Source of the DNA: Glutamicibacter halophytocola
GTDB taxonomy: Bacteria > Actinomycetota > Actinomycetes > Actinomycetales > Micrococcaceae
Direction of reading: 5' to 3'
Assembly: GCF_001302565.1 (NCBI RefSeq)
Contig: NZ_CP012750.1
Location: 1,240,001-1,304,000, forward strand
Length of the DNA: 64,000 bases
Within the stretch, counting starts at the first letter, position 1, and every line of letters begins with the position of its first letter. A model generated the notes under the pieces. It saw only the letters and a list, made by a program, of their open reading frames with translations, was not told the DNA's origin and did not search any database. This document shows positions 3,795 through 64,000 of the stretch, piece by piece. The position numbers and the translations under genes were made by a program.

Positions 3795-4847
3795 ATGGCA
3801 GCAAATAATGATCGAGAAAAGGCACTAGAGGCTGTCCTCGGCCAAATTGACAAGGCCTATGGCAAGGGCTCGGTCATGCGCCTGGGCGATGAAACCCGTG
3901 CCCCTATTGAAGTTATCCCAACGGGTTCGGTCGCATTGGACGTCGCCCTGGGAATTGGCGGCCTGCCACGCGGTCGCGTCGTGGAGATCTACGGCCCGGA
4001 ATCTTCCGGTAAGACGACGGTGGCGCTCCATGCTGTTGCCAGCGCGCAGAAGGCTGGCGGCGTCGCCGCCTTCATTGACGCCGAGCACGCCCTTGATCCG
4101 GAATACGCCAAGAAGCTTGGTGTAGATACCGATGCGCTTCTGGTCTCGCAGCCGGATACCGGCGAGCAGGCGCTGGAAATCATGGATATGCTCGTGGGTT
4201 CCGGTGCCTTGGATATCATCGTTATCGACTCCGTGGCTGCACTGGTGCCACGCGCCGAAATCGAAGGCGAAATGGGCGATAGCCACGTTGGCCTTCAGGC
4301 TCGATTGATGTCGCAGGCTCTGCGTAAGATCACCGGTCGCCTCTCGGCATCCAAGACCACGGCCATCTTCATCAACCAGCTGCGTGAGAAGATCGGTGTC
4401 TTCTTCGGCAGCCCTGAAACCACCACCGGTGGTAAGGCGCTGAAGTTCTATGCTTCGGTCCGTATCGATATCCGCCGCATTGAGACCTTGAAAGAGGGCA
4501 CCAACCCGGTGGGTAACCGCACCCGCTGCAAGGTCGTCAAGAACAAGATGGCTCCTCCCTTCAAGCAGGCTGAATTCGATATCCTCTACGGTCACGGAAT
4601 CTCTCGTGAAGGTTCGCTGATCGACATGGGTGTCGAGCACAACCTGGTCAAGAAGTCCGGCGCCTGGTTCACCTATGATGGCGACCAGCTGGGCCAGGGC
4701 AAGGAAAACGCCCGTCGATTCTTGCGCGATAATCCAGACCTGTCCGATGAACTCGAGCGGCAGATCTTGCAGAAGCTCGGCGTCCTGCCAAAGGACGAGG
4801 TTGAAGAAGACGAGACAGAACTGCGAGTCGTCGAGGGCGACAAGTAG
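3795..4847 (+). CDS. recA: Recombinase RecA
   Basis: A 350-residue recombinase that forms filaments on single-stranded DNA, performs strand exchange and triggers LexA self-cleavage. The Walker A motif GPESSGKT is at residues 67-74, followed by the IDAEHALD segment, the Walker [11 protein letters not shown], and the L2 loop region [14 protein letters not shown]. Length is normal. ATG 3795 follows AAAGGTGAACC, a reasonable ribosome-binding site. The gene has an SOS box upstream and overlaps recX by one base (stop TAG 4845-4847, recX GTG 4847-4849). The acidic C-terminal tail, which modulates RecA activity, is present. Confidence 0.98.
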
Positions 4848-5710
4848 TGTCCTCAAACTTCCAACGACGTAGCGTCCGCCCCGGACACAAATCCGGGGCG
4901 GACGCTACGTCCGTTTCGCAAGAGTTTCAGGGAAGCCTCGACGACATGCCGGATTGGGCGAAGCCCGACCCCCAGGCAGCGAAAGCGCCGGCCTCGGAAC
5001 CGGCAGGCGCAGCGGAGTCCACGTCGAAACTTCCCGAGCATGGCCATCGCCGCATCATTGTGCCAGCTTTGCAGGAGGACAAGAAGCCCGAAAGCGTCGA
5101 TGAACTGCGTGCAGCGATGGAACGCATCGTCGCCGCACCAGCACCCCCGAAGCCGTCGAAGAAGGAACGCCGCGAAGCGCGGGAAGCCCGCAAGCTGGCC
5201 CGCGAAGCGGGGGAAGCGGAAGAGCTCACCGATGAACAGTGGCGTGAGAAAGCGCGAAACATCCTGCTTCGCCAGCTAACTGCCAGCGACAAGACCGCAA
5301 AGCAGCTCAAAGACAAGCTGCTGGACAAGGAATGCCCGGAAGAAATCGCGGACGAAGTCATTGAGCGATACGCCGAGATCAATCTCGTCGATGACCAGCG
5401 TTTTGCGAAGTCATGGGTGGTGACTCGTGCCCGCTCCAGGGGACTGGCCCGCGGCGCGATTAAGCATGAGCTTCGCTCAAAAGGCGTTGATGATGAACTC
5501 GCCGCCGAAGCGTTGGAACAGATTGATGATGAAGCAGAAGAACAGCGCGCCCGCGAACTCGTCCGCGCAAAACTCCGTCCAGAATCAATGGGAGCAGATC
5601 GCGACAAGGCGTTGCGCCGATTAGTTGGAATGCTTGGACGCAAAGGCTACAACGGTTCGATGGCATTCAAGGTAGCCCGCGAAGAATGGGACGAACGGTT
5701 CAGGTCCTGA
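4847..5710 (+). CDS. recX: Regulatory protein RecX
   Basis: A 287-residue RecX; the family inhibits RecA filament extension and is usually 150-200 residues. The RecX domain is the C-terminal half, from about residue 125 (EQWREKARNILLRQLTASDKTAKQL) to the end, with the helical repeat LVDDQRFAKSWV. The first 120 residues are a low-complexity, charged N-terminal extension. The annotated start GTG 4847 overlaps the recA stop. A perfect 19-bp hairpin lies within the first 22 codons (4867-4910), so translation may instead start at ATG 4946. The gene is co-transcribed with recA unless the hairpin terminates. Confidence 0.9.
   Translation: MSSNFQRRSVRPGHKSGADATSVSQEFQGSLDDMPDWAKPDPQAAKAPASEPAGAAESTSKLPEHGHRRIIVPALQEDKKPESVDELRAAMERIVAAPAPPKPSKKERREAREARKLAREAGEAEELTDEQWREKARNILLRQLTASDKTAKQLKDKLLDKECPEEIADEVIERYAEINLVDDQRFAKSWVVTRARSRGLARGAIKHELRSKGVDDELAAEALEQIDDEAEEQRARELVRAKLRPESMGADRDKALRRLVGMLGRKGYNGSMAFKVAREEWDERFRS
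4867..4910 (+). terminator. Strong hairpin at the recA-recX junction, candidate attenuator
   Basis: Left arm ACGTAGCGTCCGCCCCGGA, loop CACAAA, then the exact 19-base reverse complement. It begins 20 bases after the recA stop and lies inside the 5' end of the recX frame. The following sequence is CCGTTTCG, so there is only a short T stretch. E. coli also has a partial terminator between recA and recX, which keeps RecX low. Confidence 0.65.
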
Positions 5711-5712
5711 GG

Positions 5713-6104
5713 CTAGCGATTTTTCTTTCGCATGAATGGTCTCTTGCCCAAGCGAAATAGCCAGTCATCCAAGCTTTGGCAAACCGGCAAAATGATGACC
5801 GCGATGGCAACCAATATTGAACCTGCCCCAATATCAAAAGCAGGTCGTCAGTGCTGTAATCCATTGGCGGGATTACGCCAATCGCCATCGGAACGGCAAA
5901 AAGGAACAGCGCGGTGAGCGAGGCCATCCACCAACGGAAAACCTTCATGGAGCGCGACAGCGGCAAGGCGCGCCGAGCTGGACTCTTGGCTGGTGGTTCG
6001 CCAGCGTCGCAACCCGCGGTTCTGCTCGCATTCCTTGAAATCGTCAACAGTTGGAACAACCCGGTCGTATCGGAAACCGCTGCACTGCGCTCCAGATGAT
6101 TCAC
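5713..6104 (-). pseudogene. Small membrane protein gene, apparently frameshifted
   Basis: On the minus strand one frame encodes a plausible transmembrane helix (MKVFRWWMASLTALFLFAVP, then AIGVIPPMDY) but goes astray after about position 5850. From there another frame gives a second clean helix and a basic tail (FDIGAGSILVAIAVIILP, then LDDWLFRLGKRPFMRKKNR, stop complement at 5713-5715). Joining the two frames gives a two-helix membrane protein with a normal basic C-terminus. The simplest explanation is a one-base indel near 5840-5853, either a real mutation or a sequencing error. The family is not recognised. The exact start is uncertain (ATG 6104 or a later one). Confidence 0.5.
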
Positions 6105-6187
6105 GAGTACCCATCTCCGATTCGTGGGCCGTTCGCCCTAGGGTCGCCTACATTTCAGCTCGATGGAAATTTCGGTAATCTTGAAGG

Positions 6188-7717
6188 GTGACTGAGCAAC
6201 AAACCGTGAGTATCCCGGAAACCGAAGAATTGCCGCGTACCTATGAAGTACGCACCTTCGGTTGCCAAATGAACGTCCACGATTCCGAGAGGCTTTCTGG
6301 CCTTTTGGAAGACGCAGGATTGAGCCGAAAGCCCGAGGAGCTCAAGGACGGCGTTGCTGATGTCGTCGTCTTCAATACGTGCGCAGTGCGAGAAAACGCG
6401 GACAATAAGCTCTACGGGAACCTCGGCATCCTCAAGGGCATCAAGGCAGAGCGCCCAGGCATGCAAATTGCAGTTGGCGGTTGCCTGGCCCAAAAGGATC
6501 GCGACACCATCCTGAAAAAGGCTCCCTGGGTCGACGTGGTCTTCGGAACCCACAACATCGGGTCCTTGCCTGCATTGCTGGCTCGTTCAGAACACAACAA
6601 GAAGGCGGAGCTTGAGATCCTCGAATCTCTTGACGTCTTCCCTTCGACTTTGCCAACGCGGCGCGAGTCCGTGTACGCCGGCTGGGTATCGATCTCCGTG
6701 GGCTGCAACAATACGTGCACCTTCTGCATCGTTCCGTCGCTGCGCGGCAAGGAACGCGACCGCCGTCCCGGCGAAATCCTGGCCGAGATCCAAGCGCTCG
6801 TTGACGACGGCGCCATCGAAGTGACCCTGCTGGGCCAAAACGTCAACTCCTACGGCGTTGAATTCGGGGACCGCCTGGCCTTCGGCAAGCTCCTGCGCGC
6901 TTGCGGCGAAATCGAAGGGCTCGAACGCGTACGATTCACCAGCCCGCACCCTGCAGCCTTCACCGACGATGTCATCGACGCAATGGCCGAAACGCCTAAC
7001 GTGATGCCGCAGCTGCATATGCCGTTGCAGTCCGGATCCGACAAGGTGCTCAAGGAAATGCGCCGATCCTACCGTTCCAAGAAGTTCCTCGGAATTTTGG
7101 ACAAGGTGCGCGAGCGAATCCCGCACGCCGCGATCACAACGGACATCATTGTCGGCTTCCCCGGTGAATCCGAAGAGGACTTCCAGGCAACCTTGGACGT
7201 TGTCGAGGCTTCGCGTTTCTCCTCGGCCTTCACCTTCCAATACTCCAAGCGGCCTGGCACGCCCGCGGCAACCCTGGAAGGCCAGCTGCCCAAAGCAGTG
7301 GTCCAGGAACGCTACGAGCGCCTGACCGCGCTGCAGGACCGCATCGCCAAGGAAGAAAACGCCAAGCAGCTGGGACGAACCGTGGAAGTCATGGTGACCG
7401 AGCAGTCGGGGCGCAAGGCCGAGGAAACGCACCGGCTTGCTGGCCGTGCGCAGGACCAGCGGCTGGTGCACTTCTCCGTGCCAAAGGGAGCGCAAACTCC
7501 GCGTCCAGGCGATCTGGTGACCCTGCCCATTACCGAAGTGGCAGCATTCCACCTCATTTCGGACCCTGAATCCGGCCAGTACTCATTGCGCCGTTCCCGC
7601 GCAGGAGACGCCTGGGACCGCGCGCAGGCGGAAAGCTGTGGCGTTCCTGCTCCGGGTGAAACTACTGCCACGGGCCGCACAAATTTGGGCATGCCAACTC
7701 TCAAGGTGCGCAGCTAG
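6188..7717 (+). CDS. miaB: tRNA-2-methylthio-N6-dimethylallyladenosine synthase MiaB
   Basis: A 509-residue radical SAM methylthiotransferase that modifies adenosine 37 of tRNAs reading UNN codons. The N-terminal UPF0004 domain has three cluster cysteines (in [14 protein letters not shown] and GGCLAQ). The radical SAM motif CNNTCTFC lies around residue 175, and a C-terminal TRAM domain is present. The GTG start at 6188 has no useful Shine-Dalgarno, but a -10-like TAATCT lies at 6176-6181, six bases upstream, so the mRNA is probably leaderless. miaA starts five bases after the stop and acts just before MiaB in the same pathway. Confidence 0.96.
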
Positions 7718-7721
7718 CCCG

Positions 7722-8648
7722 ATGATGGATACTCATCTGCCGATCATCGCCATCGTCGGACCTACCGGTACCGGCAAATCGGACTTGGCGATTTCGCTGG
7801 CCCAACAGCTCGGCGGGGAAATCGTTAATTCTGATGCCCTGCAGTTCTACAGGGGCATGGATATTGGGACCGCAAAGTTGCCGGTGTCTGAACGCGGCGG
7901 CATTGAACACCATCTGATGGACACCCTGTCGATCGCCGAAGAAGCATCGGTTGCCACGTTCCAAGAAGAAGCACGCGAGCACTTCGCGCAAATTCGCGCG
8001 CGTGGCAAGGTGCCGATCATGGTCGGCGGATCAGGACTTTATGTCAGGGCGGCACTGGATGTCATCGATTTTCCGCCCACCGATCCAGGCATCAGGAAGA
8101 AGCTGGAAGCAGAGGTCCAGGAAAAGGGCGACGGAGATCTTCGCCGCCGGCTAGCTGAAGTGGACCCCGTGTCCGCCGAGCGCAACCTGGATCTGCGGCG
8201 GGCTATCCGGGCCCTTGAAGTCCATGAAATCTCCGCACGCCCGTTCAGCTCCTACATGCCGCAGCGCGAGTACGTTGCTCCGGCTCTTCAGATCGGACTA
8301 AATTACGATCGTTCAGCGTTGCATGAAGCATTGGAAGCACGTGTGCACACCATGGATGCGATGGGATTGGCTGGAGAAGTTGCCGGTTTGCTGGAACTGG
8401 GACTGCGCGAAGGCAAAACGGCTTCTCGCGCGATCGGGTACCAGCAATACACGGATTATCTTGACGGAAAAATCACCCGGGCCGAGGCCATAACCCAGAC
8501 GGTGGTTGCCACCAGAAAATTTGCCCGACGCCAAATCACATGGTTCAACGCTGACCCGCGGGTCAAGTGGCTGGACCCCACCGAATCGGACCTCATTGGC
8601 AAAGCACTGGCCCTCATCGGCAAGCCAACCGAGGAACCAACACGCTAG
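7722..8648 (+). CDS. miaA: tRNA dimethylallyltransferase MiaA
   Basis: A 308-residue enzyme that transfers a dimethylallyl group to adenosine 37 of tRNA, giving the substrate for MiaB. The N-terminal P-loop [10 protein letters not shown] is followed by the catalytic [17 protein letters not shown] segment and the GGSGLYVRA motif. The expected C-terminal region around [14 protein letters not shown] is intact. ATG 7722 (or ATG 7725) follows the miaB stop directly. An upstream in-frame ATG at 7638 lies inside miaB and is not credible. Part of the miaB-miaA-dapF run. Confidence 0.96.
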
Positions 8649-8656
8649 GAGTATCG

Positions 8657-9592
8657 ATGTACAGCACCGAACTAGGCCAACTGGCGGGGCAGCCTTTCGC
8701 CAAGGGCCATGCCACAGGAAACGACTTCGTCTTGATTGCGGATCCAGAAGCTGACGTGGATCTGACCGCCGAACAGGTGGCGGCACTGTGCCATCGGCGC
8801 TTCGGCATCGGCGGCGACGGCTTGATTCGCGCGGTTCCCACATCCAAGATGCCCGGGTACGAACAGCAGGTCGCCCAGAATCCAGAGGCCTACTGGTTCA
8901 TGGACTACCGGAATGGCGATGGCTCCATCGCCGAAATGTGCGGCAACGGGGTGCGCGCCTTCGCCCACTTCCTGATTGCTGAAGGCCTGGTGGATCTTCC
9001 CGTAGGCCAGAGCATCCACATCGGCAGCCGCGCCGGCATCAAGATGATCACCCGGCTTGTTGAAGGCTATGCAGTGAATCTGGGCCCGTGGGGACTGATC
9101 TTCGAGGACCAGGCGGAGGCCGACTCCATAGATTCCATGGTCAAGCCACGCGGTTGGGAACAGGCGCTGCCAGCTTTGAGCATCACCATGGGCAACCCGC
9201 ACACAGTGGTGGCCCTTCCCGATATCGACATGCTCGACAGCCTTGAACTGTTCGCAGAACCAGAAGTCGCACCAAAGCCTGAAAACGGCACCAACGTCGA
9301 ATTCGTGGTTCCCAACGAGCCGCTGATCGAAGAGGACGGAGTTGCCCAGGTGACGATGCGCGTTCATGAACGCGGAGTAGGGGAGACCCTTTCCTGTGGC
9401 ACCGGCGCATGCGCTGCCGCCGCCGCGGTTCGATACTGGGCCCGAGGCACCGCGCTGATCAACCAGTGGGCAGTGTCGGTGCCAGGCGGCCTCGTAGGCG
9501 TTGAATTCCGTGCCAACGATGCCGGCGGCGAAGACACGATCCTTTCCGGCCCTGCAGAACTAGTTGCCCGCGGAGTGATCGGCGCAAAGTAG
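8657..9592 (+). CDS. dapF: Diaminopimelate epimerase
   Basis: A 311-residue PLP-independent epimerase that converts LL- to meso-diaminopimelate for lysine and peptidoglycan synthesis. Both catalytic cysteines are visible, in EMCGNGVRAF and in ETLSCGTGAC. The early motif KGHATGNDFVLI and RHRFGIGGDGLIR-like loop are present. ATG 8657 follows TAGGAG at a good distance; longer in-frame starts lie inside miaA. A 14-bp hairpin downstream ends the miaB-miaA-dapF unit and also the convergent methyltransferase gene. Confidence 0.96.
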   Translation: MYSTELGQLAGQPFAKGHATGNDFVLIADPEADVDLTAEQVAALCHRRFGIGGDGLIRAVPTSKMPGYEQQVAQNPEAYWFMDYRNGDGSIAEMCGNGVRAFAHFLIAEGLVDLPVGQSIHIGSRAGIKMITRLVEGYAVNLGPWGLIFEDQAEADSIDSMVKPRGWEQALPALSITMGNPHTVVALPDIDMLDSLELFAEPEVAPKPENGTNVEFVVPNEPLIEEDGVAQVTMRVHERGVGETLSCGTGACAAAAAVRYWARGTALINQWAVSVPGGLVGVEFRANDAGGEDTILSGPAELVARGVIGAK

Positions 9593-9605
9593 CCGGTGAA
9601 GCAAA

Positions 9606-9645
9606 AATTGCAGGCATCTCGTCCTATGGACAGATGCCTGCAATT
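9606..9645. terminator. Bidirectional terminator between dapF and a convergent methyltransferase gene
   Basis: A perfect 14-bp stem (AATTGCAGGCATCT and its complement) with a 12-base loop, 14 bases after dapF and 15 before the end of the minus-strand gene. Terminal A/T pairs make it usable in both directions. Confidence 0.7.
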
Positions 9646-9659
9646 GCTGGAATGAGGTT

Positions 9660-10265
9660 CTAGGCCGGTCGCGAAACCTTCAGGACGCGGAAGGCCTTGG
9701 CCGTGGCCTCGCGAGTGATCGACCAGTCCTGGGGAAGCTGTTCGGCCAGCCATTTCTGCAAGGAATCGCTCCCCAGATTCTTCTGCACTACCAGCCAGGC
9801 TTCCCCGCCTGCTGCCAGGCGCGGCAGCCACAGCATCAGAAGTTCGTGCAGCGCTTCCTTGCCGATGCGGATGGGCGGATTGGACCAGATGGTATCGAAC
9901 TGGAGACCGGGTTCGACGGAATCGGGGGTTCCGACTACCACGTTGCCCAACCCCAGATGCTGGGCATTCAGCCGGGTCAATTCGATCGAGCGTTCATTGA
10001 CATCCACGCCGTGAACGGTGGATTCGGGGGACCTCTCGGCAGCGGTCAGGGCAATCGGTCCCCAGCCGCATCCGATGTCAAGCACGCGCCCGCGTGGGGC
10101 GGGGACATGCTGCAACAACACCGCGGTGCCTTTATCCAAGCCTGAAGGCGAGAAGATTCCTGCGGCTGTCTGAACCTTGCGCACCGTGCCGTTGAGTTCG
10201 ACTTCAATGGTGCGTCGTTCATCGGCCGAGGCCGGGCTGGCGGTGAAGTAGTGATCCGAGGTCAT
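9660..10265 (-). CDS. Class I SAM-dependent methyltransferase, RsmC/RlmG-like
   Basis: A protein of about 201 residues. The SAM-binding motif I VLDIGCGWGPIAL and the post-motif VHGVDVNERS are clear. The motif IV WSNPPIRIGKEALHE matches the NPP(F/I)xxG signature of the RsmC/RlmG rRNA guanine-N2 methyltransferase family. The target is not proven; actinobacterial members are often a single domain as here. I chose the ATG whose complement is at 10263-10265; a TTG two codons upstream is also in frame. It is transcribed alone and converges on dapF. Confidence 0.85.
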   Translation of the reverse strand: MTSDHYFTASPASADERRTIEVELNGTVRKVQTAAGIFSPSGLDKGTAVLLQHVPAPRGRVLDIGCGWGPIALTAAERSPESTVHGVDVNERSIELTRLNAQHLGLGNVVVGTPDSVEPGLQFDTIWSNPPIRIGKEALHELLMLWLPRLAAGGEAWLVVQKNLGSDSLQKWLAEQLPQDWSITREATAKAFRVLKVSRPA

Positions 10266-38041: not shown

Positions 38042-41000
38042 TCAGGCTTCCTGTGTGGCGGGCTGTGGAAGGTGCGTATCCGGGTTGATGTTCCAGCGTA
38101 CTGCCGGATTGCCCCGCCAGTAGGTATTGGCGGGCAGAACCTCGCCGCGCAGGATCAGGCTGGCTGGACCGGTGGTGGTGCCTTCGGAGATCTGCGCGGC
38201 CGGCAGGATCACGCTGTGCGGGCCGAGAGTTGCTCCGGCACCCAGGGTCACCGCGTCAATGGACATGATGCGGTCGTGGAAGAGGTGGGTCTGCAGCACC
38301 GAGCCGCGGTTGACCGTGGAATGGTCCTGAAGGGTCACCAGATCGGCTTCGGGCAGCCAGTAGCTTTCGCACCACACGCCGTGGCCGATCTTCGCTCCCT
38401 GGGCACGCAGGAACCACACCAGGGCCGGGGTCCCCGAAGCGAGGCGGGCGAACCATTGGGCGCACACCAGCTCGGTGAAGGAATCGACCATTTCGGTGCG
38501 CCAGATGAAGGAGCTCCACAGGGTGTGCTCGCCGGGGCGGATCGGGCCGACCACCAGCCATTTGGCTGCCACCGCGATCGCCGCGGCCACTGCGCCGGCG
38601 AGCACCAGCACCGCGCCGGAGAGCAAGATGCCCGCCCAGACTCCGGCATGGGTGGCCAAAGTCGCCAGGGTCCACAGCACGCCACCGGCGATGGCCACGG
38701 TAGTGAAGACTGCCAGTGAACGGGCCAGCTCCCAGAAGGTACGCATGATCTTCAATTTCAGGGCTGGCCGGTAGGTGCGCTCCGACTCGGCTTCCACCGT
38801 GGTGCGGCGCAGCTTGTTCGGAGGGGAACCGATCCACGATGTACCGGCCTTCATCTTCTTCGGCGTGGCCGAGAGCACCGCAATCAGCGAACGCTTGGGC
38901 ACGCGGCGTCCTGCATGCAGGATGCCGGAGTTGCCCAGGAAGGCCTTCTTGCCCACGCGCACAGGGGCGATATGCATCCATCCGCCGCCGAGTTCATAGG
39001 AGGCCACCATGGTGTCGTCGGCCAGGAAGGCGCCGGAGGAGATGGTGGTCATCTTCGGGATCAGCAGCACGGTGGAAATTTCCACATCGCGTCCCACCTT
39101 GGCCCCCAGCAGGCGCAGCCAGATCGGGGTGAACAGCGAAGCATAGAGCGGGAAGAGCTGGTCGCGGGCGGTATCCAGGACCCGTTCGGTCGCCCAGGCC
39201 TGCCATCCCACGCGCGAGGTGACCGGATGCCATCCTTCGACCAGGCCGATGGACAGCAGGCGCACCACGAGGATGGTCAGGATCATGCTCGACAGGAACC
39301 AGGCGAGCGCCGCAACGATCACGGCCGGGACGAAACGCCAGCCGATTTCGGCCAGCGACGGGGCTGGCCGCAGGATCGGGGCGACCGACAGGAGGGCGAG
39401 AACCACGGGGATCCACTGCCACAGGTTGAGCAGGATCGAGGCGGCGCCAGCGAGCACTCGAGGCAGCTTGCGGTAGTCCGGTTCGGTCTCTGGCCACTTG
39501 GGCTTGGCCTTGGACTGCCGGGTCGCAGGCGAGCCGGCGTACCGGGAGTTCGCGCGGGCACTTCCGTAGACAGCCGAACCGGCCTCGACGATGGTGTCTT
39601 CGCCGATCACCGCTCCGGGGACCAAGGTGCTGCGCGCGCCGATCGACGCGCGGGCGCCAACCTCGATGGCGCCCACGTGCACCTTGTCCCCGTCAATCCA
39701 GTAGCCGCTGACATCCACCTCGGGCTCGATGGTGGCGCCCGGGCCCACGGTGAGCATTCCGGTCACCGGCGGCAGGGTGTGCAAGGTGGCGGTGCGGTCG
39801 ATCTTCGCGCCGAGCATGCGGGCGTACCAGGGCAGCAGCGGTGCGCTGGACAGCGAAATCGGGTCCACTACGTCGGCGACGTGCTGAGCCAGCCACAGGC
39901 GCAGGTGGACCGATCCGGAGCGCGGATAGACCCCGGGCTGCAGCCCGCGCAGCAGCAGCTTGTTGGCCAGGATGGACAGGGCCATGCGGCCGATCGGGGT
40001 GACGAAGAGAAGCCATAATCCGGCGATCACGTACCACGGGGTGGGCAAGGGGTCTTCGAAAATTCCCATGGACACCATGGCCACGTGCCCGATCATCAAA
40101 TAGGTGAACCAGCGCAGTCCCGAAAGGATGAACAGCGGGAAGGCCACCAGGGTCTGGGCCAATTGGGTGATGCGCTTGGTGCGCGCCACGGTACGCGGTG
40201 CCACCGGTTCGCTGGTGACTTGCTGCCCGCCGAGGAATTCAACCAGGGCACCGAAGCGCGGGTAGTCATAGAGCTCGGCCACCGTCAGATCCGGATAGCG
40301 CACGCGAAGGGCCGAGACCAGCTGGGCTGCCGAGAGCGAACCCCCGCCGGCGGCGAAGAAGTCGGCGTCCAACCCGGATACGGGCGCACCGAGCGCTCCC
40401 TGCCATGCTTCGGCAGTGAATTCTCCCACCTCGTCCAGTGGCGGCAGTTCGCCGGAGGAATCGTTCTGCTCGGTGCCGGGCAGCGGCCAGGGCAGGGCAT
40501 TGCGGTCGACCTTGCCGCTGGTCTTCATCGGCAGGCTGTCCATGACGGCCAGGATCGGCACCATGGGCGCCGGCAGGTCATCCAAAAGCGCGCTGCGGGC
40601 CGCCGGCAGGTCATAGTCCTCGGGAGCTTGCAGGTATCCGACAAGGACCTTGTTGCCGGTGGCGGTTTCCCGCACCGCCACCGCCGCCGAGGATACTCCT
40701 GCCAAGGAGTTCAGGGCCGCATCGATTTCGCCCAGCTCGATGCGCCGGCCGCCGATTTTCACCTGGTCGTCAACGCGGCCGATGAAAATCAGCCCCAGCG
40801 GGTCGTTGACGACCATATCGCCGGAGCGATAGGCGCGCTCCCAGCCCAGGGTGGGCATGGGGGCGTACTTTTCCGCGTCCTTTTCGGGATCCAGGTAGCG
40901 GGCCAGGCCCACGCCGCCAATGATCAGCTCGCCCGAATCGCCCTCGGCCACCGGAATGCCCTGGGGGTCGACCACTGCCAGGTCCCAGCCGGCCAGCGGC

Positions 41001-41992
41001 AGGCCGATGCGCACCGGCAGGCTGCCGTCCATGGTGGCACCGCAGGCCACCACGGTCGCTTCGGTGGGGCCGTAGGTATTCCAGACCTCGCGGCCCTCGG
41101 TCGCCAGGCGGCCGGCGAGCTCGGGCGGGCAGGCTTCGCCGCCAAAAATCAGCAGGCGCACCGAGTCCAGGGCCTGGGCTGGCCACAGCGCCGCCAAGGT
41201 GGGGACGGTGGAGACCGCGGTGATGGAGCGGGAAATCAGCCAAGGCCCAAGGTCCATGCCGCTGCGCACCAGGGCGCGCGGGGCGGGCACCAGGCAGGCG
41301 CCGTTGCGCCAGGCGATCCACATTTCCTCGCAGGAGGCGTCGAAGGCGACCGACAGCCCGGCGAGCACGCGGTCGGTGGTGTTCAGCGGGTCGGCGGCCA
41401 GGAACATCTGCGCTTCGGCATCAACGAAGGCTGCCGCAGAACGATGGGATACAGCGACGCCCTTGGGCTTTCCGGTGGATCCCGAGGTGAAAATGATCCA
41501 GGCGTCATCCTCCAGCCCCGGCATCCGTGGCGCGGCGTATGGCTTGGGCCGCCCGGACTCGGCCACGATGGTGCCGGTGCCCTTGATGATTCCGGCCACC
41601 CGGGCTTCGGTGAAGACGGTTTTGGCCCGCTCGTCGGGGTCATCGGCATCCACCGGAACGTAGGCGGCGCCCACCCAGAGGATCGCCAGGATCCATTCGT
41701 AGAGGTGGCGGGTGCCGGATTCGACGCGCACGCCAATGCGGTCGCCGGCGCCCAGCCCCTGCTCATGCAAGCGGCGGGCCTTGGCCTTGACCTCCTCGAT
41801 GAGCTCGGCGTAGCTTTCGGTGCGCTCCCCGTCATCAATGGCGGGGGCGTCGGGGTAGGCCCGGGCGGTGGCCCGCAGGATGTCCAAAAGGGTTCGAGGA
41901 GCCGGGGCCAGGGCACCGGAAGGAAACTGCGGAGCATAGATTTCTTGATCCGGCGCCGTAGCTTGATCGTTGTCCATGATGAACGGACCCAT
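38042..41992 (-). CDS. Pls/PosA-type membrane non-ribosomal peptide synthetase
   Basis: A 1316-residue single-module NRPS with the architecture of epsilon-poly-L-lysine synthetase (Pls, about 1319 residues). The adenylation domain (about 30-505) has A3 FTSGSTGKPKG, A4 VAFDASCEEMW, A5 WNTYGPTEAT, A7 YRSGDM, A8 GRVDDQVKIGGRRIELGE and A10 MKTSGKVDRNAL. The carrier domain (about 520-590) has its serine at about 552 in AAGGGSLS. Six transmembrane helices in three pairs (about 608-690, 845-918, 1083-1148) alternate with three left-handed beta-helix domains (about 715-830, 950-1060, 1170-1316). There is no condensation or thioesterase domain. The start is either ATG 41992 or ATG 41977. The product is probably an isopeptide homopolymer of a diamino acid; the substrate is not determined. 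Confidence 0.92.
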   Translation of the reverse strand: MGPFIMDNDQATAPDQEIYAPQFPSGALAPAPRTLLDILRATARAYPDAPAIDDGERTESYAELIEEVKAKARRLHEQGLGAGDRIGVRVESGTRHLYEWILAILWVGAAYVPVDADDPDERAKTVFTEARVAGIIKGTGTIVAESGRPKPYAAPRMPGLEDDAWIIFTSGSTGKPKGVAVSHRSAAAFVDAEAQMFLAADPLNTTDRVLAGLSVAFDASCEEMWIAWRNGACLVPAPRALVRSGMDLGPWLISRSITAVSTVPTLAALWPAQALDSVRLLIFGGEACPPELAGRLATEGREVWNTYGPTEATVVACGATMDGSLPVRIGLPLAGWDLAVVDPQGIPVAEGDSGELIIGGVGLARYLDPEKDAEKYAPMPTLGWERAYRSGDMVVNDPLGLIFIGRVDDQVKIGGRRIELGEIDAALNSLAGVSSAAVAVRETATGNKVLVGYLQAPEDYDLPAARSALLDDLPAPMVPILAVMDSLPMKTSGKVDRNALPWPLPGTEQNDSSGELPPLDEVGEFTAEAWQGALGAPVSGLDADFFAAGGGSLSAAQLVSALRVRYPDLTVAELYDYPRFGALVEFLGGQQVTSEPVAPRTVARTKRITQLAQTLVAFPLFILSGLRWFTYLMIGHVAMVSMGIFEDPLPTPWYVIAGLWLLFVTPIGRMALSILANKLLLRGLQPGVYPRSGSVHLRLWLAQHVADVVDPISLSSAPLLPWYARMLGAKIDRTATLHTLPPVTGMLTVGPGATIEPEVDVSGYWIDGDKVHVGAIEVGARASIGARSTLVPGAVIGEDTIVEAGSAVYGSARANSRYAGSPATRQSKAKPKWPETEPDYRKLPRVLAGAASILLNLWQWIPVVLALLSVAPILRPAPSLAEIGWRFVPAVIVAALAWFLSSMILTILVVRLLSIGLVEGWHPVTSRVGWQAWATERVLDTARDQLFPLYASLFTPIWLRLLGAKVGRDVEISTVLLIPKMTTISSGAFLADDTMVASYELGGGWMHIAPVRVGKKAFLGNSGILHAGRRVPKRSLIAVLSATPKKMKAGTSWIGSPPNKLRRTTVEAESERTYRPALKLKIMRTFWELARSLAVFTTVAIAGGVLWTLATLATHAGVWAGILLSGAVLVLAGAVAAAIAVAAKWLVVGPIRPGEHTLWSSFIWRTEMVDSFTELVCAQWFARLASGTPALVWFLRAQGAKIGHGVWCESYWLPEADLVTLQDHSTVNRGSVLQTHLFHDRIMSIDAVTLGAGATLGPHSVILPAAQISEGTTTGPASLILRGEVLPANTYWRGNPAVRWNINPDTHLPQPATQEA

Positions 41993-42228: not shown

Positions 42229-43197
42229 CTACGGCAGCAGGATGACCTTGCCGGTGGTGGCCCGCGATTCCAGCGCCGCATGTGCTGCGCCCGCCTCGGC
42301 CAGCGGGTACTGGGCTCCGATGCGCACATCGATCTTGCCGGTGGCCACCCAGCCGACCATATCGCCGAAGCGCCAGTGCATTTCCTGCTCCGAGGTCAGG
42401 AAATCGGCGAGCTTGGGGCGGGTCACGGTCAGCGATCCTCCAGCGTTCAGGCGCTGCAGGTTGAAATCAGGGACCTGCCCGCTGGCGCCGCCAAAAAGCA
42501 CCAAGGTGCCGCGCCGGCGCAGTGCTGCCAGGGAGGTGTCGAAGGTGTCCTTGCCGATGCCGTCATAGACCGCGTTCACGCCTTTGCCCCCGGTGACCTT
42601 CTCGACCGTTTCGGCGACCTGGTTGTAGTCGACCACGTAGTCGGCTCCGGCGGCCTTGGCCAGGTCCTTCTTCTCCTGGCTGGAGGCGGTGGTGATCACG
42701 GTGGCGCCCTTGAGCTTGAGCAACTGGGTGAGGATCAGCCCCACGCCACCCGCGCCGGCATAGGTGAGGATGACATCGCCGTTGTGCACCATGTAGCTGG
42801 AGTGGACCAGGTAATGGGCGGTCATGCCCTGCAGGGGCAGGGCGGCAGCGATATGCAGGTCCACCGAGTCCGGGACCTTGGCGGTCAGCTCGGCATCGAC
42901 CACGGCATAGTTCGAGTATCCGGCCACCCCTGAGGCGGTGGCTACGCGATCGCCCGGCTTGAAGTTCTGGACGCCTTGGCCGATCTGCTCCACCACTCCG
43001 GAGAACTCGGACCCCGGCACAAACGGGTAGTCGACGCTGTAGACGCCGCTGCGCTGGTAGGTTTCGATGAAGTTGACGCCGGTGGCTGCGACCTTGACCA
43101 GCAGCTGTCCGGGCCCTGGGACGGGGACGGGGATTCGGGTTAGCTGCAATCCGGTGGCGTCGGTGGGTTCGTTGACCACGATGGCTTGTTGCTGCAT
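42229..43197 (-). CDS. Quinone oxidoreductase (zinc-independent MDR family)
   Basis: A 322-residue NADPH-dependent reductase of the medium-chain dehydrogenase/reductase superfamily. It has the N-terminal GroES-like fold with NFIETYQRSGVY, the quinone oxidoreductase signature AALPLQGMTAHYLVHSSY, and the nucleotide-binding AGAGGVG. The cysteine zinc ligands of alcohol dehydrogenases are absent, as in QorA. It reduces quinones, usually one electron at a time. The start follows CAGGAGCACCGCATA. It stands alone, divergent from argC. Confidence 0.9.
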   Translation of the reverse strand: MQQQAIVVNEPTDATGLQLTRIPVPVPGPGQLLVKVAATGVNFIETYQRSGVYSVDYPFVPGSEFSGVVEQIGQGVQNFKPGDRVATASGVAGYSNYAVVDAELTAKVPDSVDLHIAAALPLQGMTAHYLVHSSYMVHNGDVILTYAGAGGVGLILTQLLKLKGATVITTASSQEKKDLAKAAGADYVVDYNQVAETVEKVTGGKGVNAVYDGIGKDTFDTSLAALRRRGTLVLFGGASGQVPDFNLQRLNAGGSLTVTRPKLADFLTSEQEMHWRFGDMVGWVATGKIDVRIGAQYPLAEAGAAHAALESRATTGKVILLP

Positions 43198-43372: not shown

Positions 43373-44404
43373 ATGACGATTTCAGTAGCTGTCTCCGGCG
43401 CCAGCGGATACGCCGGCGGTGAGGTCCTTCGCATCCTTGCAGCCCATCCAGAAGTAGAGATTGGTGCGATCACCGCGCACTCCCAAGCCGGGCAGCGACT
43501 CGGTTCCATCGCGCCGCACCTGCATGCGCTCGCCGACCGCATCCTGGTGGACACCACGGTGGAGAACCTTGCCGGGCACGACGTCGTGTTCCTGGCCCTG
43601 CCGCACGGTGCCTCGGCCGCCGTCGCCGCCGCCCTGCCGGAAAACACCCTGGTCATCGACGCCGGTGCGGACCACCGGCTCGAATCCGCAGCCGCCTGGG
43701 AAAAATTCTACGGTTCAGAACATGCCGGCTTCTGGCCCTACGGCCTGCCGGAGCTCCCGGGCCAGCGCGAAAAGCTCGTGGGCACCCGCCGCGTCGCTGT
43801 GCCCGGCTGCTATCCCACCGGCGGGCAGCTGGCCCTGGCCCCGGGCTTTGCCGCCGGGCTGCTGGAAGCAGACGACGTGGTCATCGTTTCCGCCTCGGGC
43901 ACCTCGGGGGCCGGCAAGTCGCTGAAGCCGAACCTGCTGGGCAGCGAAGTCATGGGCTCGATGAGCACCTACGGCGTGGGCGGCATCCACCGGCACATCC
44001 CGGAAATGGAGCAGGGCTTCTCCAAGCTCGCCGGCCAGCCGGTCACCGTGTCCTTCACCCCCACCCTGGCCCCGATGCCGCGCGGCATCCTGACCACCGC
44101 CACCGCCAAGGCCAAGCCCGGGGTGAGCGCCGGGGCGCTGCGCGCCGCCTGGGAACAGGCCTACGCGAACGAGCAGTTCGTGCACCTGCTGCCCGAGGGC
44201 CAATGGCCGACCACCGGTGCGGTCCAGGGTTCCAACCACGTCCAGCTGCAGCTGGCCTTCGACGAGCACGCCAACCGCGTCATCGTCACCGCCGCCCTGG
44301 ACAACCTCACCAAGGGCACCGCAGGTGCCGCGGTCCAGTCGATGAACATCGCGCTCGGCCTGGAAGAAAATACCGGATTGCTCATGCAAGGAGTCGCACC
44401 GTGA
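43373..44404 (+). CDS. argC: N-acetyl-gamma-glutamyl-phosphate reductase
   Basis: A 343-residue NADPH enzyme, the third step of arginine synthesis. The nucleotide-binding [14 protein letters not shown] is near the start and the catalytic cysteine is in [11 protein letters not shown]. The ATG lies six bases after the -10 TAGAAT, so the arg mRNA is probably leaderless. The stop TGA overlaps the argJ GTG. It heads an operon in the order argC-argJ-argB-argD-argF-argR. Confidence 0.97.
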
Positions 44405-45615
44405 GTCTCGCCTACACCAGCACCCACCCATCGGCAGCCACCACGGGTGTCACCGCCCCGGCCGGTTTTACCGCCGCCGGCGTGCCAGCCGGGCTGAAGT
44501 CCACCGGCAAGAACGACGTGGTTCTGGTCAAGAACCTCGGGCCCCAGTTCACCGCGGCCGGGGTCTTCACCTCCAACCGCGTGGCCGCCGCCCCGGTGCA
44601 CTGGTCCAAGCAGGTGCTGGCCGATGGCCGCATCGACGCGGTCCTGCTGAACTCGGGCGGTGCCAACGCCTGCACCGGTGCCGAAGGCTTCGGCAACACC
44701 CACCAGAGCGCCGAATACGCGGCCGGGCTGCTCGATGTCTCCGCCGGGGACGTGGCCGTGGCCTCCACCGGGCTGATCGGCGTGCAGCTGCCCATGGACA
44801 AGCTGCTGCCCGGCATCGAGGCCGCCGCGAAGGCGCTGGCCAGCGGCCAGGCCGCCGCTGACGAGGCCGCCGCCGGCATCATGACCACCGATACCGTGCC
44901 CAAGCTGGTTTCCCGCGTGGTGGGCCCGGCCGGCTCGGCCCAGATCACCATCGGCGGCATGGCCAAGGGCGCGGGCATGCTCGCCCCGGCGCTGGCCACG
45001 ATGCTCGTGGTGCTCACCACCGACGCGGTGCTCACCAGCGCGCAGGCCGACACCGCGCTGCGCGCCGCCACCGCGATGAGCTTCGACCGCGCGGACTCCG
45101 ATGGCTGCATGTCCACCAATGACACCGTGCTCCTGCTGGCCTCCGGCGCTTCGGGCACCACCCCGGACATCGCCGAGTTCACCGGCGCGCTGACCGACGC
45201 CTGCTGCGAGCTGGCCGCGAAGCTGATCGAGGATGCCGAGGGAGCGGACCACACCATCGCGATCCGCACCTACAACGCCGCGACCGAGGCCGACGCCCTG
45301 GAAGTGTCCAAGGCCGTCTCGCGCTCCAACCTGGTCAAGACCGCGGTCTTCGGCAAGGACCCGAACTGGGGCCGGGTGCTCTCCGAGGTCGGCACCACCA
45401 AGGCCGCCTTCGAGCCCGATGAGCTCAACGTCGCGATCAACGGCGTCATGGTCTGCAAGAACGGCGGGGTCGGCGAAGACCGCAACCTGGTCTCGCTCGA
45501 GGAGCGCAATGTCTCGATCGAGATCGACCTGAACGCCGGCACCGAGGAAGCCACCGTGCTGACCAACGACCTGACCCACGACTACGTCCACGAAAATTCC
45601 GCCTACTCCAGCTAG
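44401..45615 (+). CDS. argJ: Bifunctional ornithine acetyltransferase / N-acetylglutamate synthase
   Basis: A 404-residue ArgJ that recycles the acetyl group from N-acetylornithine to glutamate and, if bifunctional, also uses acetyl-CoA. The autocleavage region [14 protein letters not shown] contains the Ala-Thr site whose threonine becomes the nucleophile. [13 protein letters not shown] and [12 protein letters not shown] are further signatures. GTG 44401 overlaps the argC stop by four bases; GGAG lies ten bases upstream. An ORF extension to 44203 is inside argC. Confidence 0.95.
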
Positions 45616-45636
45616 GCTGCACCCGAGGAATCACCC

Positions 45637-46575
45637 ATGGCCCACACCGCCCGCACCAACCTGGATATCGCCCAGTCCAAAGCCGAAGCACTGATCGAGG
45701 CGCTGCCCTGGATCCAGCGCTTTGCCGGAACCACCATGGTCATCAAATACGGCGGCAATGCCATGGTTAATGACGAGCTGCGCCGCGCCTTCGCCGAGGA
45801 CATCGTGTTCCTGCGCCATGCCGGGGTCAACCCGGTGGTGGTGCACGGCGGCGGCCCGCAGATCAACAAGATGCTCGACACCTTGGGCATCAAGTCCGAG
45901 TTCCGCGGCGGGCTGCGCGTGACCACCCCCGAAGCCATGGACGTGGTGCGGATGGTGCTCACCGGGCAAGTGCAGCGCGACCTGGTCGGCCTGATCAACT
46001 CGCACGGCCCCTACTCGGTGGGCATGTCCGGGGAGGACGGCGCCACCTTGCAGGCGATCCGCACCGGCACCGTGGTCGACGGGCAGCCGGTGGACCTGGG
46101 ACTGGTCGGCGAGGTCACCCGGGTGCGCACCGACCAGGTGGACTCGCTGGTGGACGCCGGGATGATCCCGGTGATCTCCACCGTCGCCCCGGAATTCGAC
46201 GCGCAGGGCGATCCGACCGGCGCGGTGCTCAACGTCAACGCGGACACCGCCGCGGCCGCCCTGGCCAGCGCGCTGGGCGCCACCAAGCTGGTGATCCTCA
46301 CCGACGTGGAGGGCCTGTACGCGGCCTGGCCGGACAAGTCCTCGCTGATCAGCTCGATCACCAACGACGAGCTGCGCGGCATGCTGCCCAGCCTCGAATC
46401 GGGCATGATCCCCAAGATGGGCGCCTGCCTCAAGGCGGTCGACGAAGGCGTGGGCCAGGCCCACATCGTCGATGGCCGGGCCCCGCACTCGATGCTGCTG
46501 GAAATCTTCACCACCGCCGGCGTGGGCACCCAGGTGCTCCCGGCCTCCCACACCAACCTGAAGGAGGGCAAGTGA
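45637..46575 (+). CDS. argB: Acetylglutamate kinase
   Basis: A 312-residue amino acid kinase that phosphorylates N-acetylglutamate, usually the arginine-inhibited step. VIKYGGNAM (phosphate-binding lysine), [12 protein letters not shown] and the end-region [14 protein letters not shown] are conserved. The N-terminal helix expected in arginine-sensitive hexameric forms is present (about 1-25). ATG 45637 follows GAGGAATCACCC. The stop overlaps argD by four bases. Confidence 0.97.
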
Positions 46576-47828
46576 GCGAGCAGACCGCGCACACTCCCAA
46601 GACCATCGAGCTGGCCACCGACCAGGTGCAGGAGCTGGCCCAGCTCTCCTCCTCGGTGCTCGCCGAGCGCTACCAGCAATCCCTGCTGGGGGTCTTCGGC
46701 GCCCCGCAGCGCGTGCTCGTGCGCGGGGCCGGCTGCCATGTCTGGGATGCCGACGGCAACCAGTACCTGGATCTGCTCGGCGGCATCGCGGTCAACACCC
46801 TGGGCCACGCCAATCCGCTGCTCACTTCCGTGATCGCCAGCCAGCTGGCCACCTTGGGGCACGTGTCGAACTTCTTCACCTCTCCGAGCCAGATCGCCCT
46901 GGCCGAAAAGCTGCTGGAAATTTCTGCCGCCCCGGCCGGCTCCAAGGTCTTCTTCGCCAACTCCGGCACCGAGGCCAACGAGGCCGCGCTGAAGCTGACC
47001 CGGCGCAACGCCGGCACCGAAGAGGCCCCGCGCACCCGCGTGATCGCCCTGGAACAGGCCTTCCACGGCCGCACCCTGGGCGCGCTGTCGCTGACCCACA
47101 AGGAAAAGTACCGCGCCCCCTTCGCCCCGCTGCCCGGGAATGTCACCTGGATCCCCGCCGGGGACATCGATGCGCTGCGCGCCGCGGTGGACGAGACCGT
47201 ATCCGCGGTGTTCATCGAGCCGATCCAGGGCGAAGCCGGGGTGAAGATGCTCTCCGCGCAGTACCTGCAGGCCGCCCGCGACATCACCCGCGAAGCCGGC
47301 GCCCTGCTGGTTTTCGACGAGGTGCAGACCGGCATGGGCCGCACCGGCTCCTTCTTCGCCTCGGCACCGGTGATCCCGGATGTCATGACCCTGGCCAAGG
47401 GGCTGGGCGGAGGCTTCCCGATCGGCGCGATGATCGTCTTCGGCCAGGAGAACACCGCCTGGCTGACCCCGGGGGACCACGGAACCACCTTCGGCGGGAA
47501 CCCGGTGGCCTGCGCCGCCGGCCTGGCGGTCATCCACACCATCGAATCCCAGAACCTGCTGGACCAGGTCCGGTCCAACGGCCACTGGCTGCGCGAACAG
47601 CTCGCTGCGGTGCCCGGGATCAGCGCGGTGCGCGGGGCAGGCATGCTCACCGCCTTCGAGCTGGCCCAGGCCAATGCCCCGAAGCTGGTCGCCGCGGCGC
47701 TGGAGGCCGGATTCATCATCAACGCCACCGATGATTCCACCATCCGCCTGGCCCCGCCACTGGTGATCACCCAAGAGCAATTGGGCAGCTTCCTGGCCGC
47801 CCTGCCGCCGCTGATCGCCTCCGCCTAG
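46572..47828 (+). CDS. argD: Acetylornithine aminotransferase
   Basis: A 418-residue PLP enzyme, class III aminotransferase. Signatures are [44 protein letters not shown] and the PLP lysine in [16 protein letters not shown] 46572 overlaps the argB stop, and AAGGAGGGCAA lies directly upstream. The first 25 residues are a variable leader. Confidence 0.96.
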
Positions 47829-57653: not shown

Positions 57654-58988
57654 ATGGTCACAGTGAGCATGTCTGATACCAAGCAGAATCCCGTGATTGC
57701 GGGTCAGAGCAACGACGCATCTTTTCAGAACGTCTGGCAGGAACTGAAGTGGCGCGGCCTGGTGCACGTATCCACCGATGAGACCGAGCTGGAACGCGCC
57801 CTGTCCGAAGAGACTGTGACCTACTATTGCGGGTTCGACCCCACTGCGCCTTCCCTGCACCTGGGCAACCTGGTGCAGCTGCTGAACATGCGCCGCCTGC
57901 AGCTGGCCGGCCACAAGCCGCTGGCCTTGGTCGGCGGTTCCACCGGCCTGATCGGCGATCCGCGCCAAACCGCGGAGCGCACCTTGAACACCAAGGAGAC
58001 CGTGACCGAATGGGTCGCCAAGCTCCAGGCCCAGGTTTCCCGCTTCCTCTCCGCCGAGGGGGAGAACGCGGTACAGCTGGTGAACAACCTGGACTGGACC
58101 CAGCAGCTTTCCGCGCTGGACTTCCTGCGCGATGTGGGCAAGTACTTCCGTGTGGGCACCATGGTCAAGAAGGAGATCGTGGCCGCGCGCCTGAACTCCG
58201 ACGAGGGCATCAGCTACACCGAATTCTCCTACCAGGTCCTGCAGGGCTACGACTTCCTGGAACTGAACCGCCAGTACGGCTGCACCTTGCAGACCGGCGG
58301 CTCGGACCAGTGGGGCAACCTGACCAGCGGCACCGACTTGATCCGCAAGGTCCAGGGCAATTCGGTGCACGCCTACGGCACCCCGCTGATCACCAACTCG
58401 GACGGCACCAAATTCGGCAAGTCCGAAGGCAACGCCATCTGGCTGGATGCAGAAATGTGCAGCCCATACACCTTCTACCAGTTCTGGTTGAACACCGCTG
58501 ACGCTGATGTGATCGACCGCTTGAAGGTCTTCACCTTCTTGACCCGCGAGCAGATCGCCGAGCTTGAGGCCGAAGTTGCCGAGCGGCCATTCAAGCGCGT
58601 TGCCCAGCGCACCTTGGCCTGGGAAGTGACGTCCCTGGTCCATGGGGAGCAGGCCACCGAGCAGGTGATCGCTGCGTCGGCCGCGGTATTCGGCAATGGC
58701 GATCTGGGCGCGATCGACTTGCCTACCTTGGAATCGGTCATCGCTGAGCTTCCCACCGCCAAGGTTGAGGCCGGCGATCTGGGCATCCTGAATGTGCTGC
58801 ATGCATCGGGCTTGAGCAAGTCGCAGTCGGAGGCTCGTCGCACAGTGAGCGAGGGCGGCGCCTACGTGAACAACGAAAAGGTTGAAGGCATCGATACCGT
58901 GCTCAGCGTGTCCGACTTCCTGCACGGACGCTATGCCATCGTTCGACGCGGCAAGAAGAACATGGCCGTGATCGAGCTGGCGCAGTAG
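57654..58988 (+). CDS. tyrS: Tyrosine-tRNA ligase
   Basis: A 444-residue class I synthetase. HIGH appears as HLGN in PTAPSLHLGNLVQ, KMSKS as KFGKS in DGTKFGKSEGNAIWL, and tyrosine recognition motifs YQVLQGYDFLEL and QTGGSDQWGN are present. The C-terminal S4 RNA-binding domain (about 375-440) ends AIVRRGKKNMAVIEL. Start candidates are ATG 57654, GTG 57663 and ATG 57669; none has a strong ribosome-binding site. A small hairpin GCGTGA...TCACGC lies at 57610-57626. No T-box was recognised. Confidence 0.95.
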   Translation: MVTVSMSDTKQNPVIAGQSNDASFQNVWQELKWRGLVHVSTDETELERALSEETVTYYCGFDPTAPSLHLGNLVQLLNMRRLQLAGHKPLALVGGSTGLIGDPRQTAERTLNTKETVTEWVAKLQAQVSRFLSAEGENAVQLVNNLDWTQQLSALDFLRDVGKYFRVGTMVKKEIVAARLNSDEGISYTEFSYQVLQGYDFLELNRQYGCTLQTGGSDQWGNLTSGTDLIRKVQGNSVHAYGTPLITNSDGTKFGKSEGNAIWLDAEMCSPYTFYQFWLNTADADVIDRLKVFTFLTREQIAELEAEVAERPFKRVAQRTLAWEVTSLVHGEQATEQVIAASAAVFGNGDLGAIDLPTLESVIAELPTAKVEAGDLGILNVLHASGLSKSQSEARRTVSEGGAYVNNEKVEGIDTVLSVSDFLHGRYAIVRRGKKNMAVIELAQ

Positions 58989-59013
58989 AGCTGCAATACC
59001 GGCGAACTACACG

Positions 59014-59064
59014 AAACCACCAAAAATGATGTGAAGCAGCACACTTTTTTGGTGGTTTTGTTGT
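59014..59064 (+). terminator. Terminator of tyrS
   Basis: AAACCACCAAAAA pairs with TTTTTGGTGGTTT, 26 bases after tyrS, followed by TGTTGT. It isolates tyrS from the rRNA operon. Confidence 0.85.
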
Positions 59065-59129
59065 ACCCGGAACTGATACACCCAAGTCAGCATGAGATTT
59101 TAGACCAAAATCCGACACGCTTTCCGATT

Positions 59130-59157
59130 TTGCGTCTGGTGGGAATCCGTGTAGAGT
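59130..59157 (+). promoter_or_regulatory. rRNA operon promoter P1
   Basis: TTGCGT (59130-59135), a 16-base spacer and TAGAGT (59152-59157). Confidence 0.6.
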
Positions 59158-59235
59158 TTTATCTCGCGCCGCTGATCCGGACGGGCCGAAAAGGCCTGCA
59201 GGGAACAGCGGGGTGAACAAGCTGGAAACATCGAG

Positions 59236-59263
59236 TTGACTTTGGTTGACATGATGGTAGGCT
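59236..59263 (+). promoter_or_regulatory. rRNA operon promoter P2
   Basis: TTGACT (59236-59241), a 16-base spacer and TAGGCT (59258-59263). A TTGACA also lies inside the spacer at 59246. Confidence 0.65.
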
Positions 59264-59507
59264 TGAAAAGTTGCTCCGGAGCGAAGCAGTCGCCGAGTTT
59301 GTGGTGGTTGTGGTGTCGAGAGTGTTTGTTGTTTGAGAACTCAATAGTGTGCCAAGTTTGTTGATACCGAATTTTTTATTTGGTGAATACATAACATTTG
59401 CTTGAGGCATTGCACCCCCGTGTGATGTTCTTGAGTGTTTTTTATTCGCCAGGATTTTTTCATTGATTCTCCCTTATTTTCCGAGGGGTTTCGGTGGCTT
59501 TTTGTTT
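59264..59507 (+). promoter_or_regulatory. rRNA leader with nut/boxA-like element
   Basis: No protein gene is present. TGTTGTTTGAGAACTCAATAGTG (59327-59349) recurs with three changes before 23S (61531-61553), as expected for an antitermination (boxA region) or processing signal. The rest is T-rich leader ahead of 16S. Confidence 0.6.

Positions 59508-64000
<4,493 letters not shown>

Follow-up and report, generated by a model that had tools for sequence, protein, structure and literature searches.

What polymer would a Pls-type synthetase of Glutamicibacter halophytocola assemble, and why is its gene followed on the same strand by a gene for a polyphosphate kinase? The questions are raised by a stretch of 64,000 nucleotides (contig NZ_CP012750.1, positions 1,240,001 to 1,304,000; hereafter the window), in which the open reading frame 38042..41992 (pls) is a full-length Pls/PosA-type synthetase. 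As judged from sequence and predicted structure, the enzyme is very probably an epsilon-poly-L-lysine (epsilon-PL) synthetase that uses lysine. For the locus as a whole we make a tentative proposal: some Micrococcaceae may carry a natural, polyphosphate-powered epsilon-PL cassette, comprised of the synthetase, a protective depolymerase and a polyphosphate kinase 2 (PPK2) from a dedicated clade, the genes of which are retained, lost and transferred together, and to which Glutamicibacter adds a phosphopantetheinyl transferase of its own.

The class of the enzyme follows from its architecture. Pfam identifies an AMP-binding domain (residues 40-365, 197 bits), a PP-binding domain (528-587, 38 bits) and a Hexapep match (777-808, 31 bits); neither a condensation nor a thioesterase family matches at E<=0.001. 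The C-terminal part (residues 612-1297) matches the NCBIfam model TIGR02353 (Pls/PosA family NRPS terminal domain) with 634 bits against a cut-off of 423.1, covering model positions 2-695 of 695; at least 6066 protein relatives of this region exist. The nearest solved structure is the adenylation (A) domain of Streptomyces albulus Pls (PDB 7wew; E 7.5e-185, 620 bits over 493 residues). Of the three beta-helices Pfam recognises just one, and the hydropathy scan is less clean, as the first membrane helix (608-634) emerges only once the threshold is lowered to 1.4. The AlphaFold2 model of residues 600-1302, built on an alignment of 68 sequences (mean predicted local distance difference test score 88.7, predicted template modelling score 0.89), shows one unit three times over, made up of a pair of long helices, shorter ones and a series of short strands. 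These repeats resemble left-handed beta-helix acyltransferases. An earlier note on this DNA, made from the sequence alone, had described an A domain and a thiolation (T) domain followed by three pairs of membrane helices alternating with three beta-helix domains, and had assigned the protein to the Pls type; both the architecture and the class are borne out. Its caveat that conserved residues of the tandem domains might be missing does not apply: of the 368 columns with at least 95% conservation among 122 relatives, 366 have the consensus residue in the window protein. The genome holds one full-length pls copy, the eight other matching stretches being adenylating-enzyme-like with 28-41% identity. 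An alternative ATG five codons downstream makes the true start ambiguous.

The earlier note left the monomer open between lysine, ornithine, diaminobutyrate and something new. The ten-residue code of the window A domain is DAESIGTVVK, and all ten residues match 7wew, with the positions located by motif and the 7wew residues taken from a printed alignment by eye; the motif positions in GrsA used for the placement are those we take to be standard. Asp218 and Glu222 form a diamino-acid pocket, rather than one incompatible with amino acids, which the note had named as grounds for dropping its reading. The code recurs in all 81 sequences compared, that is, the window and the best 80 of 548 loci in genome contigs, to which locus and flank counts refer below (the closest named loci, L001-L003, are 88-92% identical to the window). 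When the set is widened to 122 rows (a few of them duplicates), DAESIGTVVK is seen in 113 and DAESIGTVIK, a change at position 9 alone, in 9. As a contrast set we used seven plasmid-borne Pls-like members. Those from Kitasatospora and Arthrobacter show the lysine code; the other five, at 27-31% identity, have the codes DFECLSAVTK, DLEDIGTVVK, DFEYLGTVTK and (twice) DFEALGTVTK, the first of these adjoining a diaminobutyrate transaminase gene. At code position 2, Ala has been assigned to lysine, Met to ornithine and Phe to shorter diamino acids (PMC10522769; cited papers are used here in excerpt). Because the window code equals that of Pls, the distant members differ and position 2 is Ala, lysine is the best-supported monomer. 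That the synthetase takes another diamino acid (ornithine, 2,4-diaminobutyrate, 2,3-diaminopropionate or beta-lysine) or a new one is very improbable. Slight pocket changes do suffice to switch lysine to ornithine in Acinetobacter baumannii PosA, which has Met at position 2 (PMC10522769), and the ornithine-route genes argCJBD lie on the other flank of pls. However, position 2 of the window code is the lysine-type residue, the locus has no diaminobutyrate-type neighbour (dat), and argCJBD is a mere chromosomal neighbour that persists where pls has been lost.

A further position may be of interest in this respect. His1239, within the motif QTHLFHDR, is His in lysine-type members; the aligned residue is Glu (QTHLFEDR or QTHLYEDR) in three of the five distant members and departs otherwise in the two from Shinella and R. 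rhizoryzae. Possibly the residue at this position is tied to the type of monomer.

The gene downstream of pls on the same strand, after a gap of 12 bases, encodes an M1 metallopeptidase in which a hydropathy scan finds no membrane segment. We place it as a putative pldII by its position and family. An M1 peptidase relative lies directly downstream of pls in all 80 loci as well as in one named Kitasatospora record. Peptidase and pls form an operon in Streptomyces and in Corynebacterium variabile, and Streptomyces PldII degrades epsilon-PL (PMC8117764).

The third gene on the strand, after pls and pldII, is ppk2, at 74 bases from the peptidase gene. The structures nearest to its product are 5ll0, 4yeg, 3czq and 6dzg (329-371 bits), of which we take 5ll0 and 4yeg to be class I enzymes, and a polyphosphate:ADP phosphotransferase is among their PDB titles; the class III structure 6au0 reaches only 99 bits. 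The window protein is class I-like and predicted to be a polyphosphate:ADP enzyme. It shares the PPK2 core with these four proteins and differs from them in belonging to a pls locus. Among 295 Micrococcaceae genomes, pls of at least 60% identity to the window is found in 123, some PPK2 (E<=1e-40) in 220, and a close type of PPK2, with at least 71% identity to that of the window, in 44. All 44 also hold pls: 40 of them have the kinase gene downstream in the same orientation, no more than 3.2 kb away, three have it within 8.5 kb, and one has it on another contig. PPK2s of 68-70% identity were found near pls in none of 19 pls-bearing genomes examined. In a tree of 46 hand-picked PPK2s, the 24 pls-linked sequences and one exception on another contig form a clade of 25 (support 0.87), with the other 21, all unlinked, outside. 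Full-length pls, peptidase and PPK2 are present in the same 14 of 18 Glutamicibacter genomes and missing from the same four. For two further genera, which were picked after the family tables had been inspected, the close PPK2 occurs in all 7 carriers of pls of at least 60% identity in the one and in 9 of the 10 in the other, but in none of the remaining 15 and 5 genomes, respectively. The three genera combined give 30 of 31 pls carriers versus none of 24 others; one genome (88% complete, G233) with only a 48% identical pls paralogue is tallied among the latter.

Tail-to-tail with ppk2 lies a gene for a 4'-phosphopantetheinyl transferase, whose product matches the Pfam domains 4PPT_N (93.3 bits, cut-off 27) and ACPS (46.0 bits, cut-off 25). 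It was rejected as PptT proper (NCBIfam NF050105; 178 bits, below the cut-off of 365) and is a PptT relative. Its gene accounts for the sole PF17837 match in the genome. Eleven of the 18 Glutamicibacter genomes have one such match each, all at the pls locus, including one (G007) in which a shortened gene stands beside a pls remnant. No description of pls-pldII-ppk2 with a tail-to-tail phosphopantetheinyl transferase was found in the literature searched; so far as that search shows, the pls locus with PPK2 is a variant not yet described.

Taken together, these genes suggest a sequence of steps. The transferase, a candidate activator of the T domain, probably arms Ser552, as its position and the single PF17837 match indicate. 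The A domain would then convert L-lysine and ATP into lysyl-AMP and pyrophosphate and load the T domain, consistent with its code and fold, and the C-terminal membrane region would link the lysine carried by the T domain, via the epsilon-amine, with a free lysine or with the growing chain, as is known for Pls; for these two steps jointly we have the same high confidence as for the identity of the enzyme. The M1 peptidase is likely to cleave the polymer and protect the producer, the role known for Streptomyces PldII. Whether PPK2 regenerates ATP for the synthetase from ADP and polyphosphate is evenly poised, given its linkage and family; together with adenylate kinase, it would offset the ATP-to-AMP cost of each added residue. 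Polyphosphate might also act as intracellular counter-ion for the polycation.

Several observations weigh against such a cassette. The close PPK2 is missing in 79 of the 123 pls carriers of the family sample and is hence dispensable; the fetched flanks of 65 of the 80 named loci have no PPK2 match, and the 15 that do are all of Glutamicibacter or Paeniglutamicibacter kinds. No PF17837 match occurs in four (G002, G010, G012, G017) of the 14 pls-bearing Glutamicibacter genomes, so that either another enzyme serves there or the model misses the transferase. C. variabile, despite a working pls that yields epsilon-PL when expressed in Streptomyces coelicolor, itself gave no polymer in culture (PMC8117764). 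Moreover, argC and a quinone reductase gene, conserved neighbours with no functional tie, stand on the other side of pls, and the order argC, quinone reductase, pls, pldII, ppk2, pheT-like gene is conserved in many genomes of the family, much as for housekeeping neighbours. Since functionally unrelated neighbours are conserved as well, the linkage of pls and PPK2 could be old synteny: PPK2 and the phosphopantetheinyl transferase may simply be long-standing neighbours of pls, a possibility that we regard as real, if somewhat doubtful. It is at odds with the complete lack of close PPK2 in genomes without pls and with the manner in which the block disappears. The four Glutamicibacter genomes without it retain the flanks (quinone reductase, DUF5129), and pls, pldII and ppk2 are gone together. 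On a tree of flanking genes these genomes fall in two or three separate places (G007 by G011, G008 and G009 by G017, G003 by G005); the pairing of G003 and G005 has a support of 0.055. In G005 (L170), identity to the window is 79-92% across the stretch that matches 36.0-42.0 kb and mostly 66-78% in the flanks (argB 82-83%), as though the three genes had moved as one block; such a contrast of block and flanks suggests an exchange of pls-pldII-ppk2 between species.

Decay of the locus is seen in several relatives. G007 retains a piece of pls corresponding to residues 3-88, and its locus (L084, about 9231-10116) is decayed to this fragment and a shortened phosphopantetheinyl transferase gene; pls is also fragmented in L143 (G255) and in L186, a plasmid record of Arthrobacter sp. 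StoSoilB13. The pls remnant in G007 and the split gene in G255, along with the silence of C. variabile pls in culture (PMC8117764), would fit a locus that is silent or decayed in the window strain too. We consider this unlikely, as the window gene is intact at nearly all highly conserved columns and full-length pls persists in most genomes of the genus.

The proposed polyphosphate-powered cassette may be compared with systems already described. S. albulus Pls shares the A-T module, six membrane helices, three tandem domains and the lack of condensation and thioesterase domains, as well as the code and an M1 peptidase gene alongside (PMC8117764); its A domain is not identical to that of the window, and an adjoining PPK2 and phosphopantetheinyl transferase are unmentioned for S. 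albulus in the excerpts. C. variabile, likewise a non-filamentous actinobacterium, shares the architecture and the operon with a peptidase gene; it belongs to another genus, and the part of PMC8117764 available describes no PPK2 there. PosA, the delta-poly-L-ornithine synthetase, is of the same family and architecture, with its three beta-helices modelled as one pseudo-threefold domain, but has the code DMEHNGTVSK and a single-gene operon (PMC10522769). Closest in concept is an engineered PPK2/PAP system for ATP regeneration in S. albulus, which also couples a polyphosphate kinase to epsilon-PL synthesis and raised the yield by 21% (PMC10012588). It combines C. glutamicum PPK2B with an AMP-phosphorylating enzyme, whereas the window locus has the ADP type only. 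Contrary to the earlier note, a pls locus is not little described in Micrococcaceae: Pls has been reported in Glutamicibacter, Arthrobacter and Micrococcus (PMC8117764), NAPAA clusters are common to the Micrococcaceae strains of PMC11078813, and pls is widespread in the family sample. The less familiar part of the locus is formed by its neighbours pldII, ppk2 and the phosphopantetheinyl transferase gene, on which the earlier note is silent.

Table. Features of the pls locus and its flanks, in window coordinates (aa, amino acids)
Feature	Position	Strand	Remarks
pls, epsilon-poly-L-lysine synthetase (predicted), 1316 aa	38042..41992	-	ATG start; Pfam, NCBIfam, structure match, code, AlphaFold2
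A domain, residues about 40-500	40493..41875	-	code D218 A219 E222 S261 I282 G284 T306 V314 V315 K494
T domain, residues 528-587	40232..40411	-	phosphopantetheine site Ser552 within GGGS
C-terminal polymerisation region, residues 600-1302	38087..40195	-	six membrane helices (three pairs), three beta-helices
C1 beta-helix region, residues about 681-830	39503..39952	-	Hexapep 777-808, AlphaFold2
C2 beta-helix region, residues about 959-1064	38801..39118	-	AlphaFold2
C3 beta-helix region, residues about 1199-1295	38108..38398	-	AlphaFold2
QTHLFHDR, residues 1234-1241	38270..38293	-	His1236 and His1239 invariant in 122 aligned relatives
M1 metallopeptidase, pldII position, 433 aa	36728..38029	-	HEFAH at 286, second Glu at expected distance
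ppk2, polyphosphate kinase 2, class-I-like, 298 aa	35757..36653	-	TIGR03707 382 bits, cut-off 301.8
4'-phosphopantetheinyl transferase, 230 aa	35068..35760	+	TTG start uncertain; 4-base overlap with ppk2
Zinc-type quinone reductase-like gene	42229..43197	-	flank outside the unit; kept in 18/18 genus genomes
argC-argJ-argB-argD	43373..47828	+	flank; Pfam/NCBIfam

A second type of Pls, 47-51% identical to that of the window, occurs in nine Micrococcaceae loci (L087, positions 4794-8849, L088, L089, L090, L091, L092, L095, L096 and L097). Its code is lysine-like (TVIK in 8 of 9). A gene for an HGSNAT-like membrane acyltransferase adjoins it in all nine loci and dapA, of lysine biosynthesis, in six; no M1 peptidase match is found among the nine. 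This type may make a modified polylysine from its own lysine supply. Genes similar to pls are also found in 42 plasmid records (H1-H57), including Rhodococcus, Mycobacterium avium, Streptomyces, Rhizobium and Shinella. In the window itself, the GC content drops to 0.54-0.57 within positions 58000-64000, with the GC skew climbing to 0.21-0.27 from 60 kb on.

The synthetase is an enzyme of known kind, and its value is that of a further candidate producer of a food preservative that is non-filamentous and fast-growing. The yield of epsilon-PL is held to be limited by ATP, and a co-evolved set of pls, pldII and ppk2 could be compared directly with the engineered one; if the cassette reading is true, nature had reached the design that was engineered in S. 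albulus in 2023. The linked PPK2, if its proposed role is true, would matter more than the enzyme, and would connect polyphosphate with the natural synthesis of a cationic polymer.

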